The notes beneath the pieces are model-generated. The model made no database searches. It saw only the letters and a program-made list of their open reading frames with translations, and was not told the origin of the DNA. A stretch of 38,738 nt of DNA from a virus: positions 1 to 38,738 of the IMG/VR virus record IMGVR_UViG_3300032069_000025; one strand, 5' to 3'. This document shows positions 15,500 through 30,917 of this stretch, in pieces; position 1 is the first letter of the stretch, and every line of letters starts with the position of its first letter. The position numbers were made by a program, and so were the translations under genes.

Positions 15500-17064
15500 A
15501 GATTCCTGTCGCCGGACAACTGAGTGCGCTGCCGGAACTGCCTGCCGTCCGTGTTTCTATCGAGGCAGGCGAGCGGCCTGGCCGGGAACTCGCGCAGGTC
15601 GCTGGCGAGGGCGAACAGCTTGCTCGGCAGTGGCAAGCTGTCGAGCAGGAACTGGAGTTGGCGCGGGAGACTGCCAACACGTCCAAATTCCTGATGGAGA
15701 TGGACGAGGAAATGCAGGGTCGCCTGGAAAGGCCGGACACGACCGTGAGCCCCGCAGAGGCATCCGCGGCATTTCGGAAGGAATTCGCGCAGAAGGCAGA
15801 GCAATTCGTGGCACCCATGCCGAATGCCGTTATCCGATCCCGCATCCTGACGCAACTGAACCACCACATCAACACCCGCGCCATTGAGTATAGGACGCAG
15901 GCCGTGAAGGTCCACAGGGAGCAAATCCTTGGGGAATTCATTCAGGCGGGAGAAAAAGTCCAGCAGGAGTACGCGAGAACGGGAGACCGTGAAAAGGTGG
16001 CCCTGCACCTTGCGTGGCTTGACGATTTGGTCAGCACGGGCATCGTCCATGCAGACAAGGCGGCGGAGATTCGGCAGAAGTTCGTCGCAGCCGCCGAGAA
16101 TAACAGGGTAGACCACGATCTGATGGTCAATCCCTATCAGACGCTCAAGGACATCGCAGACGACAAATATCTCCTTGATGAGGACCAGAAATTCGCAGGC
16201 AGTACGCGCGCTCAGGCGCGGATCACACATTTGAATACGCAGAACAAGGAAGCCAGAAACGCTGCCGAGGATGATTTCAAGCGAGACATGATACTTGCTC
16301 TCGAAGCGGGTGTGTTTGGCACGGGCGACAAGATTGACAAGGCTAGGATTCTTGGGCTTCTGCGTGGTCACACGAGCGGCGCAGTGGACCATGTGCTCGC
16401 CAAGGTCGCCAGCGTAGAGAAGGCCGAGAATAAGCTGGAGATGAAAGCCTCTGGTGATCTTGCCAGCGAATATCGAAGGAAAATTCGTGACACCACGACT
16501 GCGGCACAGGCGACGGGATTGATGCGGGCCGCCGAACTAGAAAACATGCTGCCGAAGGATTTGGAGGCCGTGGATACGGCATATCAGCACCAGCTCACCC
16601 ACCTCGACGCGATGACCAAACGTGCTACTGATGAACAGAGCAATCGGATCAAGGAGCAGGAAGCCCAAAAAGCCCAAGCACGACACGAAGCCAACATCTG
16701 GCTACCGAGTCTTCATGCTTATGAGATTAAGGCAGACCCAGATATGTACGATGCCCGGGCGAAAACCCAGGATCGGATTGAGGCGTCAATTGACCAAGAA
16801 GCGTCTGCTGGACGCAATCCGGTTGAATGGGTCCGCAAGAACCGAGTGTCGATCCAACTGGGTTTCTACAAGAGCGCTGAGGCAGCCTACAACGCGAAAA
16901 AGAGCGAACTATTATCCTACGGATACAAGACACCTGACGAGCTTCGTGCGGCCATTATGTCCGGGAGGGTGCCTCCCGAGCAAGCAAAGCACCTGAAGGA
17001 ATTAACCCGAAACCTGAAAGATTTGAATGAGTGGCTTGCCAAGAATAAGCCGGGGAAAGAATAA
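15496..17064 (+). CDS. Internal virion protein C-like ejection protein (T7 gp15 position)
   Basis: The 522-residue protein is almost entirely helical and charged, with long heptad-like stretches (VEQELELARETANTSKFLME, later RIKEQEAQKAQARHEANIW) and Lys/Glu-rich ends. Sequence likeness to T7 gp15 is not evident by eye. The call rests on order, size and composition. Proteins of this kind form part of the core over the portal and the periplasmic tunnel for DNA ejection. It starts in ATGA overlap with the gp14-like gene and ends in TAATG with the next. Confidence 0.68.
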   Translation: MKIPVAGQLSALPELPAVRVSIEAGERPGRELAQVAGEGEQLARQWQAVEQELELARETANTSKFLMEMDEEMQGRLERPDTTVSPAEASAAFRKEFAQKAEQFVAPMPNAVIRSRILTQLNHHINTRAIEYRTQAVKVHREQILGEFIQAGEKVQQEYARTGDREKVALHLAWLDDLVSTGIVHADKAAEIRQKFVAAAENNRVDHDLMVNPYQTLKDIADDKYLLDEDQKFAGSTRAQARITHLNTQNKEARNAAEDDFKRDMILALEAGVFGTGDKIDKARILGLLRGHTSGAVDHVLAKVASVEKAENKLEMKASGDLASEYRRKIRDTTTAAQATGLMRAAELENMLPKDLEAVDTAYQHQLTHLDAMTKRATDEQSNRIKEQEAQKAQARHEANIWLPSLHAYEIKADPDMYDARAKTQDRIEASIDQEASAGRNPVEWVRKNRVSIQLGFYKSAEAAYNAKKSELLSYGYKTPDELRAAIMSGRVPPEQAKHLKELTRNLKDLNEWLAKNKPGKE

Positions 17065-20000
17065 TGCCGAGACTTGACGCCAGTTACATTGACGCCCGCG
17101 AGAAGGTGTACAACGAGCAACTCGACGCGGATTTCGATAAGATTCGCGGCAACTCGTGGGACTTCACCGGCTCTGAGACCCCGCCGCCACCCAAGCCAAC
17201 GACGATCAGACAAAGAATGTGGAAACCCGCTGCGGACATTTTGGCCGATCCTGCGGCATCTCGCGTGGAGCGATTCTTGGCCGGTGTCGCACGGGGGATT
17301 CAACTGACACCTAGTCTCTTTCGGCCAATTGAAGACACCCCAACCGACAATCCCTTTACCAGAATAGGGGAAGCTTTCGCTTGGACCTTTACAACGTCCT
17401 TCAATGCGGTCAGCAAAGGATTGATTGAGGCGGGGATTATCAGACCCGAATTCGCTGAAGAGGTTGGGAGGTCGCTCGTCGGTGCATTGCCGGCGTTTTT
17501 CGGTCCAGAGGCTGCGGCACTGCGGAACATGCGATTTATCCGAGAGTCCAACAAAATCATCAATCGGTCTGTCCTTGACGACTCCGGGGTGCCGCGTCCC
17601 GAGCCAGCACCTATCGAGCCTGTAGCGCGAAACATCCAGCTTGAAGCGAAGCTGGCGAGACTCATCGGCGGCAAAGACGCCGTGGAATTCCAGTACGCCC
17701 AGCGGGCGAGAAGGTTGATCGAAGAGAATCCCGGCATGAGTGAAGCCGATCTCATTCGTAAGGCTCTCGGGGGACTCACTGAAGCCGAAGCCGGAGTGAC
17801 CGCGCAAGTGAGTCGTGGCAAAATCCTTGATCAGTTGTCCCCTGAGTCGCTGGCAGAGGTACGAGCGCAGGCAGAAGCTGGAGGACCATTCCCAATCAAA
17901 ACGGAATTCGGTGATATTCAGGGGCCAAAGGGCGAAGTGCTGAAGGCCATCCAATTGCAGGAACAAACACGCGGGATTCGCCGCGGGCCTGATGAACCGC
18001 CTCCGCCATCCGAGCCGCCGCCTCCGGGCCAACTGCCGCCTACAACGGGTGAACCGCCAGTAGAACCCCCGCCCCCTGCTGGCGAATCTGCCAAACTCGC
18101 CACAGACGCAAAGGCTGGCACCGCAGGTGAGCCCTCTCCGTATCAAGTGTGGCTAGAGAATGTAGGCAAACGACTACTCAGTGAGGAACAAGGCCAAGCG
18201 ATTTTAGAGCAGATGCACGAGAATCAGATTTCGCCCGCAGATGTACAACGTCAGTTCTGGTCGGATGTGTATCCGTTCCTGCCAGAAAATGTGCAACGAC
18301 GATTTGAAGGCATGCTTGCGAATCTCCTTGGAAGGCCATCGGAGGAACTCAGAACCGCTGAGGGCCGACGGGTGGCCCTTGCAAATTCCGACCTAGGGGC
18401 AGAGGCGCTTGAACTAGAGGGAACCGAACGAGGCTATGTATCTTCAATGAAGTATGGCCTTGATATGTTCCATAGAACGAAAGCGGGCACAGAAGCGGAG
18501 CGGGCAGGGAGAACGGTTCCCGCCATAGAACCGCCACTATCCGACTGGCAGAAGTCTATGGTGGAGCAGGCAGAGGCAGCGAAACAAGCCGAAGCACCCC
18601 AAACCGCTGTACCCGGAGTCCCCACAGCCGAACGGCCATTTTCCATCGTGGAGCCACCAGAGGGAGGTCCTACGGCCCCGCCCACTGGTCCAGAAGCGAA
18701 AGCACCATCTGGAGAAGCACCTACGCACCTCCCCGGCTTCAAGTATCCTGCTACCACAGGGATTGCGGAGGAATTGCAGCGCATCCAGCAAGATGCACAG
18801 AATATTGAGTTGTTAGGAATCCAAAAACGATGGGAGCAACCGGACCCCCAACGGCTTGCGGCAGCGACGAAGCTAATCGAGACGGGTGAAGTGACGCTGG
18901 AAACGACTGCGGGGCTTCAACCGGGCACCGTGCTCAATGCGGAGCAGGCAACGGCGCATATGGCCGTGGCAAACGCCGCCATGAACAATGCGCACCGGAT
19001 TATGACTGAGGCCCTTCAAGGCCGGTACGATCTCGGCGCGGCTGCGACTATCCAAGTCATGGCGGACTTGGCAGCGCGGAATGTCTCGGCCGCGGCGACG
19101 GAGTGGGGCCGGGTTGGCCGAGTCTTTCAAGAGCCTGGCGGGATCGCTCCTGCGAGAGCGATCACTGGGATGATGCCTCTTGATCCGTCGGGCGGTGGGA
19201 TCACTGATCCGATCTGGAATCTTCCTCCGAATGAACGAATCGCCGCACTCGCCACACGGCTTGTCTCGACCGCCGGAGGCCCCAAGGCATATCTGGAACA
19301 GCGAGCCATGCTGGAAACGCAAGCGCAACGGGCGTCCTTGGGGAGCCTACGATCCCGTCTGGGCCGGGCGACGATGGAGTTGGTCTATAACTCATACATG
19401 AGTATCCGCACCATGGGCAAGATCATTCGCTCGGGGCTCCTCGTGACTCCGACTATTCATCTTGCCGAGACGGCGATTGCGGAGGCGATTGGGCGGACCC
19501 GTCCGATGCTCAACGCCATCGCTCCGCACTTGGTGGATTCCGTGGGTGCGGTCGTCAAGGGCAGCGCGTGGGTCGAAGCCGCGATGTGGCGCGACGCATT
19601 AGCGGATGCCTTCCGGGGCTTGCAGCAGAGCTGGCACGCCACGGCGCGAGTGTATGCTGCCGAACTTGCCAAAGGCACGCCGAAGGCCCTTGCCTGGGCC
19701 ACGGCGGAGCAGCAATGGATGGATGCCCTGCGCGAAAGCAACCCGGCGTGGTCGCGGGTGATGGGCAAGAATCGCCTGCAACCAGCGATTACGAGGGGGG
19801 AACTTCCCGAAGTAGAATTGGCGGGAGAAGCATTCGCCAAGGCGATTGATTTTCTCGGCGCAGTCGGACGCCACAATACCGACGGAGTGTCCGCCGCTCA
19901 TGCCTTTACGCACACGTTCAATTTTCGCGTCGGGGCGAAGTTGGCAGCGCACAATGAAGCGGTACGTGCCGGCCTCGAACCTGGCACGGCTGCGTATGAG

Positions 20001-21347
20001 GCTCGCGTCGCTCAGTACATGAGAGAGTTGCCGCCTGAGATTTACGCACCTGCTATGTCCATGGCCAACGACAACACGTTCATAAACGTCGCGCACTCCA
20101 ACATGCTGGCAAAACTTCAACGGGTTATCGGCGGACAGGATGTGTTCTCGCGGATCGCCATTGCGGCGTTCACGCGCATGCCGATCAATAAGATTGAGTA
20201 CACACTGGAGCGGACGCCGATCATTCAATTTCTCATGCGCGGGTGGCAAGACCAGTTGAGGAATCCGAAGACCCGCGACCTGGCACTCGCCAAGGCCGGC
20301 CTCGGTACAGCTATCGCATGGGTGTTCACTGATCTAGCTGCACAAGGATATATTACGGGGTCTCCTCCTGCGCAAAAGTCAGAGCGCGGAGCCATGCACG
20401 ACGCGGGGATTCCGTATCGCTCCTGGTGGAATCCCGTCACACAGAAATGGAACAGTGCTGCCGAGATGGAACCGCTCGGGGATTTCGTGACAATCTACGC
20501 CGATGCTCTCAGGATTTCTCGGGACATCAAAGACCCGCACTTTTACGATTACATTGCGCCACTTGTCATCGCCTCGGGCTATGCGTTCTTTGAGCAGGGC
20601 ATGATGATGGGCCTCTCGAACTGGCACAACGTCTTTCACGGAGAGGACGAAAATAAGAGCATCAACGCCTTCTGGAATTCCGTGCGTCCCCCTATGCCAT
20701 TCCAGGGGGATTTACAAACCCTGTATCCGTATGCGGATGGACTGCGGCGCGAGATGCGGACATTAACTGACCGATACCTCGCGCTACTTCCAGGCAATAA
20801 TCTGCCCTTCGACCGGAACCGGATCACTGGAGAGCCGATGGAATACGAGGGCGCGTGGCCGACCGACATGCTTTCGGCCTTCCAGACGCGCACCATGACG
20901 AAGGACCCGGTGTTGCTGGAAATTCATCGCCTGCGAGGTGCCGGGATTGAGAAATTCCCCGACCACATCGGCGGTCCCCGGCCTGACCAATGGGTAGAGA
21001 TGCAACGTCCCGGCGTGGTCTCGGGCGTTGACCTGACGCCGCAGCAAGTGGATCGTGGGATTGTCTTCCAAACGCAGGAAGTCAAGATAGACGGCAAGAC
21101 GATGCACCAAAACATGACAGACCTAGTAAAGAGCGAACGATACCGCAACCTTCCCGATGTTGAGAAGGCCACGCGGCTGAATCACCTCTACCTGGTGTAC
21201 CAGCATGCGGCCATCATTCGCTTGCTCGGGGAGAATCGCGACCTTCGGGATGCCCTGCGAGGCGTCCAGAAAGAGAAGATCGAGATGCGGAAGCCGCAAC
21301 AGCCTGCGGCCCGAGAGGGCGCAGGCATCGTCGGCCTGGGACGCTGA
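17064..21347 (+). CDS. Giant internal virion/ejection protein (T7 gp16 position), 1427 aa
   Basis: It is the largest gene. The N-terminus is helical. A proline-rich linker lies near residues 312-345 (PPPSEPPPPGQLPPTTGEPP), followed by a charged helical middle with a second Pro-rich hinge near 525-560. The C-terminal third, from about 980, resembles the large polyvalent-protein domain found at the ends of such phage proteins (RMPINKIEYTLERTPIIQF, then GYITGSPPAQKSERG). No lytic transglycosylase motif was seen, unlike T7 gp16. It should be packaged in the head and ejected ahead of the DNA. It is coupled to the ATP-grasp gene by TGATG. Confidence 0.72.
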   Translation: MPRLDASYIDAREKVYNEQLDADFDKIRGNSWDFTGSETPPPPKPTTIRQRMWKPAADILADPAASRVERFLAGVARGIQLTPSLFRPIEDTPTDNPFTRIGEAFAWTFTTSFNAVSKGLIEAGIIRPEFAEEVGRSLVGALPAFFGPEAAALRNMRFIRESNKIINRSVLDDSGVPRPEPAPIEPVARNIQLEAKLARLIGGKDAVEFQYAQRARRLIEENPGMSEADLIRKALGGLTEAEAGVTAQVSRGKILDQLSPESLAEVRAQAEAGGPFPIKTEFGDIQGPKGEVLKAIQLQEQTRGIRRGPDEPPPPSEPPPPGQLPPTTGEPPVEPPPPAGESAKLATDAKAGTAGEPSPYQVWLENVGKRLLSEEQGQAILEQMHENQISPADVQRQFWSDVYPFLPENVQRRFEGMLANLLGRPSEELRTAEGRRVALANSDLGAEALELEGTERGYVSSMKYGLDMFHRTKAGTEAERAGRTVPAIEPPLSDWQKSMVEQAEAAKQAEAPQTAVPGVPTAERPFSIVEPPEGGPTAPPTGPEAKAPSGEAPTHLPGFKYPATTGIAEELQRIQQDAQNIELLGIQKRWEQPDPQRLAAATKLIETGEVTLETTAGLQPGTVLNAEQATAHMAVANAAMNNAHRIMTEALQGRYDLGAAATIQVMADLAARNVSAAATEWGRVGRVFQEPGGIAPARAITGMMPLDPSGGGITDPIWNLPPNERIAALATRLVSTAGGPKAYLEQRAMLETQAQRASLGSLRSRLGRATMELVYNSYMSIRTMGKIIRSGLLVTPTIHLAETAIAEAIGRTRPMLNAIAPHLVDSVGAVVKGSAWVEAAMWRDALADAFRGLQQSWHATARVYAAELAKGTPKALAWATAEQQWMDALRESNPAWSRVMGKNRLQPAITRGELPEVELAGEAFAKAIDFLGAVGRHNTDGVSAAHAFTHTFNFRVGAKLAAHNEAVRAGLEPGTAAYEARVAQYMRELPPEIYAPAMSMANDNTFINVAHSNMLAKLQRVIGGQDVFSRIAIAAFTRMPINKIEYTLERTPIIQFLMRGWQDQLRNPKTRDLALAKAGLGTAIAWVFTDLAAQGYITGSPPAQKSERGAMHDAGIPYRSWWNPVTQKWNSAAEMEPLGDFVTIYADALRISRDIKDPHFYDYIAPLVIASGYAFFEQGMMMGLSNWHNVFHGEDENKSINAFWNSVRPPMPFQGDLQTLYPYADGLRREMRTLTDRYLALLPGNNLPFDRNRITGEPMEYEGAWPTDMLSAFQTRTMTKDPVLLEIHRLRGAGIEKFPDHIGGPRPDQWVEMQRPGVVSGVDLTPQQVDRGIVFQTQEVKIDGKTMHQNMTDLVKSERYRNLPDVEKATRLNHLYLVYQHAAIIRLLGENRDLRDALRGVQKEKIEMRKPQQPAAREGAGIVGLGR

Positions 21348-23671
21348 TGGACTACAAGGACAAGTCGGTGTGCGTGGTGGATAACGGGCTCTTCATGGAC
21401 TTGGCCGCCGACCTTGCCAAGCACTTCGGCACGGTATACTACACGTCCCCCTGGGTGGACGAATTCCCCGACTCCAACGCGATGATTCTGGGCAAGGGCC
21501 TCCCCGACGTGAACCGAGTTGACGACATCTGGCCGCTGATAGACAAAGTAGATTTGTGGTGTTATGACGACCAAACTCAGATCCTCACTGAGAATGGCTG
21601 GAAGTACTTCAGAGAGCTATTGCACCATGAGGCGATAGCAACGCTGTCGCCGTCTGGACACTTGGAATATCAGGTGCCAATTGGCTACATTTCGTACCAT
21701 TATAAGGGAGATTTGTGTTCGGTTGAGTCTTCTCGGATCAATTTTGCCGTGACCCCCAACCACCGGATGTATATCAAGCGGGCGAGCCAGGCGAAATTTG
21801 AACTCAGGCCAGCGCAGGATTGTTTTGGCATGTCAAATATAGAATTCGCCAAAACAGCGGAATGGACAGGCATTGAAACCGACACAGTGACCATTCCTCC
21901 TGTCGAGGCGACATGGACCATTAACCATAATCGTGGTGGACGCCGCTGGAAAACACATCAGCGCAAACAGTGGCCGAGATTATGCGTCAGAACCGATGCC
22001 CTGATGGCTGTCATCGGGTTTTACCTAGCTGAAGGGTCTCTCTGTCGTCGCAATGGTGGGCGGGTGTGTGGACTGGAGTTCGGTCAGAATGATGGAAACA
22101 CGCTCAACCAATTTCTTGCGATTCTCAAAGAATGCGAATTTCCTTATACCGTGAACAAAAAAGGCAAACGATTTCGGATCGTGCGGATACATAGCACGCA
22201 GATTGGAAGATATTTTTCCCAATTTGGCGAGCGAAAACGCAAAACGATTCCGCGATGGATTCGAGAATTATCAAAGAGGCATCTGAAGGTTCTTTTTGAT
22301 TGGTATATGCTGGGAGACGGCTCCACCAGCGGTTATACGTTTAGCACGGTGAGCCGGTCTCTCGCCGACGGCCTCGAAGAAGTGGCGCTCAAATTGGGAT
22401 ACGCGATTTCCGAAAAGCCCATAAGCTATAAATGGCACAGGTCTCCCAATAGGCAGACGTATCTTTGTGATCAAGGGTATAGAGTTAACATTAGCCGAAA
22501 ATACGTAACGCCAGCGGTAAGAAAATCTCATTGGAAGCGCATCCCATATGACGGGCAAGTCTATTGTGTCACGGTTCCGAATGGGATTGTTTATGTTCGC
22601 CGAAACGGTGTACCAATTTGGTGTGGCAACTGCTTTCCTGACGTGTACTACGGTCGTCTCCAACTCTACCTGGAGAAGATCAGCAAGCGCGTGTGGGGTG
22701 CGCGCATGGGCGAAGAGTTGGAGCTAGATCGGGCCGCCTCCAAGCGGCACATGGAGAAGTTGGGCATCCCCGTTGGGGAGTACGTCGTTTTGAAGGGCAT
22801 AGATGCCCTGCGGGAACATCTGAAATTCCACAAGGATCAATGGGTGAAGATTTCCCTAACGCGCGGGGACAAGGAAACGTTCTTGTCCCCAAACTACAAA
22901 CAGATTGAGTCCGTGTTAGACGAACTAGCGATGAAACTCGGCGTTGTGAAGGCCACCAAAGAATTCATCGTTGAGCGGAACATCCCGGACGCCATCGAAA
23001 TCGCCTACGATGGCTATTCAGTGGACGGGCAATTCCCCCACGCTGCGATGGTGGGCCTGGAAGTGAAAGGAAAGTGCTACATCGGCATCTTCCAGGACGA
23101 GGACGATATGCCCTGGCAGATCACCGAAGTGAACAGGAAGCTCGCTCCGACCCTGCAACGATACCGCTACCGGCAATGGCTGGCGTTGGAGATGCTCATT
23201 ACCGAGGACGGCGACTACGCCGTAACCGATCCATGTGCCAGATTTGGCAGTCCTCCTGGCGAAGTGGTGCCCCTGATGTACACCAACCTCCCGGACATCT
23301 TGTGGTATGGGGCCGAGGGGACGCTTGTGGAACCGATGCCCGGCGGCAAGTACGCCGTGGAACTGCGCATGGAGTCCTGGTGGGCGCGGGATCACCCCTT
23401 GGCGGTGTACTTCCCAGCAGACATCAGTGATCACGTCTGCCTGCGGCATGTGTGCCTCATCAACAATCAGCCGTACATCGTCCCGCAGAACGCCAAGATC
23501 GAGTGCATCGGCTCGGTGGTGGCCGTAGGCGATGATTTGCAGGAGACGATGGATGAGGTGAAGGAGTACGGCAAACAGGTGGAAGCCTACGGCCTGGAGA
23601 TTGACTACGACAGCCTGGACGAAGCCGTGGAGAAAATCGAAACGCTCAAATCCTATGGCGTAGAATTGTGA
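21347..23671 (+). CDS. PurD-like ATP-grasp enzyme interrupted by an intein
   Basis: The 774-residue precursor would splice to a 417-residue ATP-grasp protein (71 N-terminal plus 346 C-terminal residues). Extein features resemble phosphoribosylamine-glycine ligase: an N-terminal Rossmann-like strand (KSVCVVDNGLFMDLAADLAK), an ATP-grasp lid (LDRAASKRHMEKLGIPVGEY, then QWVKISLTRGDKETF), and near the end of the fold TDPCARFGSPPGEVV, equivalent to the metal-binding ARFG.PE motif. The substrate is unknown; such enzymes join a carboxylate to an amine using ATP. It lies between the ejection protein and tailspike genes. I recall similar ATP-grasp genes there in related phages, without known role. Confidence 0.8.
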   Translation: MDYKDKSVCVVDNGLFMDLAADLAKHFGTVYYTSPWVDEFPDSNAMILGKGLPDVNRVDDIWPLIDKVDLWCYDDQTQILTENGWKYFRELLHHEAIATLSPSGHLEYQVPIGYISYHYKGDLCSVESSRINFAVTPNHRMYIKRASQAKFELRPAQDCFGMSNIEFAKTAEWTGIETDTVTIPPVEATWTINHNRGGRRWKTHQRKQWPRLCVRTDALMAVIGFYLAEGSLCRRNGGRVCGLEFGQNDGNTLNQFLAILKECEFPYTVNKKGKRFRIVRIHSTQIGRYFSQFGERKRKTIPRWIRELSKRHLKVLFDWYMLGDGSTSGYTFSTVSRSLADGLEEVALKLGYAISEKPISYKWHRSPNRQTYLCDQGYRVNISRKYVTPAVRKSHWKRIPYDGQVYCVTVPNGIVYVRRNGVPIWCGNCFPDVYYGRLQLYLEKISKRVWGARMGEELELDRAASKRHMEKLGIPVGEYVVLKGIDALREHLKFHKDQWVKISLTRGDKETFLSPNYKQIESVLDELAMKLGVVKATKEFIVERNIPDAIEIAYDGYSVDGQFPHAAMVGLEVKGKCYIGIFQDEDDMPWQITEVNRKLAPTLQRYRYRQWLALEMLITEDGDYAVTDPCARFGSPPGEVVPLMYTNLPDILWYGAEGTLVEPMPGGKYAVELRMESWWARDHPLAVYFPADISDHVCLRHVCLINNQPYIVPQNAKIECIGSVVAVGDDLQETMDEVKEYGKQVEAYGLEIDYDSLDEAVEKIETLKSYGVEL
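21560..22630 (+). mobile_element. Intein with LAGLIDADG homing endonuclease, 357 aa
   Basis: The insert starts at Cys72 of the precursor (CYDDQTQILTENGW, block A) and ends at Asn428, followed by Cys429. Within the intein, block B is VTPNHRMYI (64-72, with Thr65 and His68). The two dodecapeptide motifs are ALMAVIGFYLAEGS (147-160) and VLFDWYMLGDGS (244-255), with acidic residues Glu158 and Asp253. Block F is VYCVTVPNGIVYVRR (334-348) and block G is VPIWCGN. The penultimate residue is Gly rather than the usual His. The segment is visibly richer in A and T than its flanks, as expected of a transferred element. Confidence 0.95.
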
Positions 23672-30130: not shown

Positions 30131-30249
30131 TAACTTGGGCCGAAGCCCTTTTTGTCTTCGCCACCGCCATCTGGATTCTCTCCACTGTGGCTCTGGCGAT
30201 TTCCGTCCTGTACGAGGCCGCCATGTGGGTCTGGAGGAAAATCAGGTGA
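30127..30249 (+). CDS. Tiny membrane protein, 40 aa
   Basis: The start overlaps the preceding tiny gene. The single helix spans residues 5-31 (AEALFVFATAIWILSTVALA onward) and ends in YEAAMWVWRKIR. It carries the ribosome site (GGAGG, 30233-30237) for the following receiver-domain gene, whose GTG start overlaps its stop. It may pair with the 33-residue protein; no function is known. Both sit directly before a signalling-type protein. Confidence 0.55.
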   Translation: MITWAEALFVFATAIWILSTVALAISVLYEAAMWVWRKIR

Positions 30250-30917
30250 TCCCTGTCCTGCCGGCGGACCGATATGAGCATGTGGGGGAGTTGTTTGTGG
30301 CGCTGGACGTGCGGGTCGGATGTTCGCCGGCCCTGTGGGGCGTGTTCCCAGTGTCCGTTAATCCGCACGACTTGGCGGAGCGGCTGACTACCGTGCTTCG
30401 GGAGGAGGTGGCGAAGGCCGGCCTTCGGTCCACCATGTCCGACGCACCCTCGTTTGAGGTACACCCGGCGACGGGCATTATTCAGGAAGAGGAGGTCGAG
30501 GAGGCCGAATTCAGGTCGGAGCTCGACCGACTCGGACCACTCCCGACCGTACTGATCGTTGAGGACGATCCCTCCACGCGCGAGTACCTTCGCGCCGCGT
30601 TAGAGGCGGAGGGCTGCGAGGTTCTAGAGGCCGCGTATCAGTTAGGTGTCGAGGCAATGGCGCTTTCGCCATCGCCGATAAAGGCTGTGCTGCTAGATGG
30701 GAATGTCCCATTCGCGGATGGTCAGATGCCGACTGCAACTCTCCCGCTGGCACTACGTCTTCAGGCAGCGGGGATTCCAGTCATCATCCATTCGGGTGAC
30801 GATAAGATAAACGAGGACGCGCGAGAACATGGCCTACGGGTCGTGCCCAAGGGTAGTTCACTCAGCGACCTCCTGCGTGCCGTACAATCCTGTGTCGAAG
30901 GTGCGCCCGAGGGATAG
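30246..30917 (+). CDS. Stand-alone response-regulator receiver (REC) domain protein
   Basis: The start is GTG 30246, eight bases after GGAGG. The N-terminal part (1-98) is of unknown fold with an acidic stretch (GIIQEEEVEEAEFRSELDRL). The REC domain spans about 99-216: TVLIVEDDPS with acidic pair Asp107/Asp108, AVLLDGNVP with phosphoacceptor Asp151, PVIIHSGDD with switch Ser183, and VVPKGSS with Lys202. All key positions are kept. It has no DNA-binding output domain, and no histidine kinase was found in the window. It could receive phosphate from host kinases, or act as a decoy. Confidence 0.85.
   Translation: MIPVLPADRYEHVGELFVALDVRVGCSPALWGVFPVSVNPHDLAERLTTVLREEVAKAGLRSTMSDAPSFEVHPATGIIQEEEVEEAEFRSELDRLGPLPTVLIVEDDPSTREYLRAALEAEGCEVLEAAYQLGVEAMALSPSPIKAVLLDGNVPFADGQMPTATLPLALRLQAAGIPVIIHSGDDKINEDAREHGLRVVPKGSSLSDLLRAVQSCVEGAPEG

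Follow-up and report, generated by a model that had tools for sequence, protein, structure and literature searches.

Homing inteins in phages, inteins ending in GN and insertion into conserved motifs are already known. The penultimate histidine of an intein normally aids cyclization of the terminal asparagine; its absence is a known exception among phage inteins, and a histidine in block F has been proposed as its stand-in (Kelley et al., 2016; PMC5050341). The RDF intein of mycobacteriophage Bethlehem (gp51), which has a penultimate glycine, splices completely, and its Gly-to-His mutant was found mostly as precursor, requiring more than 5 h to reach about half; other inteins without the histidine respond differently from the RDF intein (Kelley et al., 2016; PMC5050341).

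The intein analyzed here lies in a window of 38,738 nucleotides, the whole stretch of DNA that was analyzed (IMG/VR virus record IMGVR_UViG_3300032069_000025). The RDF intein of cluster A1 mycobacteriophages, compared here in the copy of phage Nepal (L191), is likewise a class 1 intein with a penultimate glycine, VPNG in block F and a GN end (GN|S), and it matches the window intein over its full length in tblastn; in contrast to the window intein, it lacks the VRRNG signature and resides in a metallophosphoesterase-like RDF, and the two are only ~20% identical (E about 4e-3). The intein in the flavin-dependent thymidylate synthase (ThyX) of Corynebacterium phage P1201, annotated as a hypothetical intein, belongs to the lineage of the window intein (LTSEGWK, end VPNHTLYVRRNGKPVWSGN|S, ~27% identity over the full length), although its host protein is a different one. 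The best solved structural and profile matches, the TliVMA and PI-PkoII inteins (7qsu, 2cw7), share the combination of a HINT fold with a LAGLIDADG endonuclease; unlike the window intein they are archaeal, and their identity to it by structural alignment is 12-15%. Very likely, the class 1 intein of the window is mobile, has a LAGLIDADG homing endonuclease that looks intact, and has recently homed into the gene for a PurD-like ATP-grasp protein of a temperate, podovirus-like phage.

The insert and its host protein

The precursor gene and its landmarks are located in the window as follows:

21347..23671, + strand: precursor gene, 774 aa, a PurD-like ATP-grasp protein with an intein insertion (ORF translation)
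21347..21559, + strand: N-extein, residues 1-71, ending ...KVDLW (alignment to the intein-free allele L001)
21560..22630, + strand: class 1 intein, 357 aa, from Cys1 to Asn357, ending WCGN (alignment, AlphaFold, Foldseek)
21560..21610, + strand: block A (CYDDQTQILTENGWKYF) with the Cys1 nucleophile (C1 in 62/62)
21749..21766, + strand: block B core VTPNHR with T65 and H68 (H68 in 62/62, T65 in 61/62)
22010..22039, + strand: LAGLIDADG motif 1, VIGFYLAEGS, acid E158 (Pfam, alignment, profile)
22295..22327, + strand: LAGLIDADG motif 2, FDWYMLGDGST, acid D253 (Pfam, alignment, profile)
22547..22630, + strand: blocks F and G, YDGQVYCVTVPNGIVYVRRNGVPIWCGN, in which Gly356 is penultimate and Asn357 terminal (alignment)
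22631..23671, + strand: C-extein, residues 429-774 and stop, starting at Cys429, the +1 nucleophile, CFPDVYYG (alignment to L001)
22631..22660, + strand: 30-nt stretch 3' of the insert, a possible co-conversion tract (holds 9 of the 77 bases that differ from intein-free L001)

The insert occupies codons 72-428 of the 774-aa open reading frame, in frame and without a stop; under a base-composition model, the chance of 357 open codons is ~4e-9. Cys1, the block B residues TPNH, the endonuclease motifs FYLAEGS/YMLGDGS, block F VYCVTVP and the end WCGN|C are conserved in 61 relatives. A penultimate histidine is typical of class 1 inteins but not strictly required; this hallmark is absent in the window intein, which has glycine instead, and the other class 1 features, C1, the block B TxxH and Asn357 ahead of precursor residue Cys429, are present, as are both LAGLIDADG catalytic acids. 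The G+C content of the insert is 48.6% (51.8% at third codon positions), compared with 57% in the exteins (76-85% at third positions). An AT content this high is reached by only ~0.1% of the 1071-nt stretches in the window, and the insert coincides with the window's most AT-rich segment of that size. The first-pass annotation of this DNA had called a full-length intein with exact boundaries, which translation, motifs and the 357-codon difference from L001 uphold; it had also listed blocks A, B, F and G, two LAGLIDADG motifs and cysteines at both junctions, all of which are present, and had correctly described the segment as richer in AT than its flanks.

The AlphaFold model of the window intein (pLDDT 95.3) has a HINT fold, as judged by Foldseek matches to solved inteins that combine HINT and LAGLIDADG domains; the top match was the TliVMA intein 7qsu (E=2.7e-14), and the intein profile matched the solved PI-PkoII and VMA inteins with E-values of 1e-18 to 1e-20. 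The LAGLIDADG_3 match exceeded the Pfam cut-off; the Pfam family Intein_splicing (PF14890) had no match anywhere in the record and is therefore too narrow here. A scan with the intein alignment yielded 312 related stretches. Among the relatives found for the window intein none was close, the best having 37% identity.

The host protein was not identified by single-sequence searches of Pfam, PHROGs and PDB with the extein, and tblastn of the extein against 50,697 phage records gave no match. A profile built from 44 extein sequences matched the solved structure of PurD, glycinamide ribonucleotide synthetase (2yw2), collinearly with E=3.9e-7. The AlphaFold model of the extein (pLDDT 95.3, pTM 0.92) found PurD structures as its best Foldseek matches over the whole length (E=4.7e-19, TM 0.65-0.73), so that extein and PurD appear to have their fold in common from end to end. 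Taken together, the profile match and the confident model with its PurD matches identify a PurD-like ATP-grasp protein, as the first-pass annotation had proposed. The name GAR synthetase should not be applied to it. Sequence identity to PurD is 14-18%, the PurD motif EfNxRfGDPE reads DPCARFGSPPGE in the window extein, and, at the metal-binding E..N motif of PurD, the ATP-grasp family conserves D271 and E258 and has Cys or Thr at the Asn position. The PurD-like family, which Pfam and PHROGs miss from a single sequence, is widespread in phages (246 related stretches in one viral scan); a further member lies close to a portal gene on the Bradyrhizobium contig L145.

Intein-free alleles and a second insertion site

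In L001, a contig from a related phage, the gene lacks the insert; its product is 417 aa long, i.e., 774 minus 357, and the two proteins are 95% identical. The L001 sequence KVDLW|VFPDVYYG corresponds to KVDLW|CFPDVYYG in the window after predicted splicing, and L001 aligns across W71|C429 without a gap, which bears out the earlier claim that removal of the 357 residues restores a continuous protein. The extein genes show 77 base differences between the window and L001, of which nine lie within the first 30 nt 3' of the insertion point and none within the 56 nt 5' of it. The nine are synonymous except for two, which change Val to Cys at the +1 position. Codon shuffling gave P=0.0003 for the 30-nt place 3' of the insert and 0.07 when all positions of the gene were allowed; in this one pair of alleles, the 3' cluster possibly reflects co-conversion of a short flank together with the intein.

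Scans with the extein alignment located 107 loci besides the window in viral contigs and bacterial genomes (108 in total, including the locus L014). All but two of these 108 ATP-grasp family members, the window and L014, are intein-free, a count in which occupied alleles may be under-represented since one of the two patterns in each scan extends across the insertion site and would not match them; a DNA-pattern scan found no further occupied allele at the W71|72 site. Among loci without an insert at the window's site, residue 72 is Val in 75, Ile in 27, Cys in three and Ala in one; the cysteine that splicing would leave is thus tolerated in this family.

L014, which was found via its intein, encodes a family member (L014:4164-6503; N-extein 39-40% identical to L001) with a related intein that ends in SGN|C and is inserted at DPTIR|CPYPPGE, in a region that corresponds to the conserved EfNxRfGDPE stretch of PurD. 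The two inteins thus share an ATP-grasp host family and interrupt different motifs (W71|72 in the window, R275|276 in L014), both of them conserved. Inteins favor conserved positions (PMC5050341; PMC2814812), and two conserved-motif sites within one gene family are typical of them. Derivation of the L014 intein from the window intein by a jump within the gene was considered and is unsupported: the two do not group together in a tree in which many deep forks lack resolution, and P0002 groups with L011 and L024 (96/89).

No earlier report of an intein in an ATP-grasp gene was found in the open literature, judged by title and abstract; as far as the literature was searched, ATP-grasp enzymes represent a previously unreported type of intein host. 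With insertions at two separate motifs, they extend the range of host proteins of phage inteins.

The penultimate glycine and competing explanations

The GN end occurs in 79 of the 83 related phage inteins that could be read to their end in the intein-alignment scan, two further ones breaking off just short of it, and Gly356 and Asn357 are invariant (62/62) in alignment A4; GN was not a search pattern in choosing these relatives. It was found in all eight relatives checked in annotated phages, namely in mycobacteriophage nucleotidyltransferase and RDF, P1201 ThyX, Pectobacterium phage nucleotidyltransferase, Prevotella phage Lak-A1, Tenacibaculum phage NrdB, Escherichia phage ThyX and Staphylococcus phage phosphoribosyltransferase, and in L010 as well. 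Since GN is nearly universal among the relatives and the His mutant of the RDF intein is slow, the glycine is a feature of the lineage; by these alignments it is the standard residue of the related phage inteins and not the oddity that it had initially been taken for. It characterizes a large lineage of phage inteins and is no rare defect, which should alter the annotation of such ends. More tentatively, and with somewhat less than even probability, the GN-ending phage inteins may constitute one large mobile lineage with a His-less route of Asn cyclization, in which the usual histidine harms splicing and whose hosts include portal, terminase, ThyX, nucleotidyltransferase, RDF and ATP-grasp proteins. 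Two other arrangements were observed elsewhere: a portal-like protein with two GN-type inteins (L003:1806-6167), and a single protein in which a canonical HN|C intein end is followed by a GN-type intein (L054:3261-7187).

The predicted course of events begins after translation, when Cys1 would make an N-S acyl shift; the N-extein would then pass to Cys429, and Asn357 would cyclize and free the intein, the lineage presumably managing this step without the penultimate histidine. The ligated product would have 417 residues, with Cys replacing the Val or Ile usual for the family at residue 72. During mixed infection, the target of the endonuclease would be the empty W|V site in related phages, such as those of the L001 type, and repair of the cut would copy the insert together with a short 3' flank, bringing along the Cys codon at +1.

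The first-pass annotation had suggested that the glycine slows Asn cyclization and makes splicing conditional, in which case splicing could regulate the ATP-grasp enzyme like a switch. This is very doubtful: the normal assistance of cyclization by the penultimate histidine would speak for it (PMC5050341), as would the glycine of the window intein at block F position 342, which is His in 27 of the 62 aligned inteins, but the Nepal RDF intein likewise has glycine at that position, so that both lack the proposed block F stand-in, the GN end is common to the lineage, and the RDF intein, which is of the same kind though only a distant relative, splices fully, with the Gly-to-His mutant as the slow form, in the opposite direction from the one suggested (PMC5050341). 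Nothing supports conditional splicing through the glycine. It is also highly improbable that the intein has decayed, so that it no longer splices and a dead 774-aa protein is made; the missing histidine fits such decay, whereas the nucleophiles, the block B TxxH, the terminal Asn and both LAGLIDADG acids are all kept, the 357 codons are free of stops, and the extein retains the invariant residues of its family, as far as compared with L001.

That splicing is intact and the endonuclease inactive, with vertical inheritance and no present mobility, is unlikely but deserves some weight, given that the window's site is occupied in only one of 108 family members and that the donor of the intein was not found. 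Three points speak against it: a pair of alleles as similar as that with L001 (95% identity) implies that the intein was gained or lost recently, the endonuclease retains its two catalytic acids, and the differences around the junction are asymmetric. The contig is of metagenomic origin and the occupied allele has no second copy, which leaves a barely conceivable joining of two genes by an assembly or binning artefact; yet the insertion is codon-exact and in frame, has perfect intein ends, and is flanked by extein that is collinear on both sides. The natural pair of occupied and empty alleles with its possible co-conversion footprint is the most useful feature, as it makes homing directly testable.

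Genomic setting

The window phage has genes for a podovirus-type connector, an integrase and ERF. Its ATP-grasp gene overlaps the end of the gene for a 1427-aa protein and the start of a tail-spike-like gene, a setting that is shared by the close relatives L001 and L089 and is missing in most of the ATP-grasp family. The earlier placement of the gene in a virion module consequently holds for the window phage and these two relatives, but it is not fixed across the gene family. A constant position between virion protein and tail spike can be rejected, since the neighbors are the same as in the window at just 2 of 79 and 2 of 94 loci. The 1427-aa protein itself (17064-21347) has no Pfam match and is, by its position, probably an internal virion protein. 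Elsewhere in the window, an open reading frame at 30135-30917 shows a weak match to a response-regulator receiver domain (E=3.2e-7, just above the cut-off).
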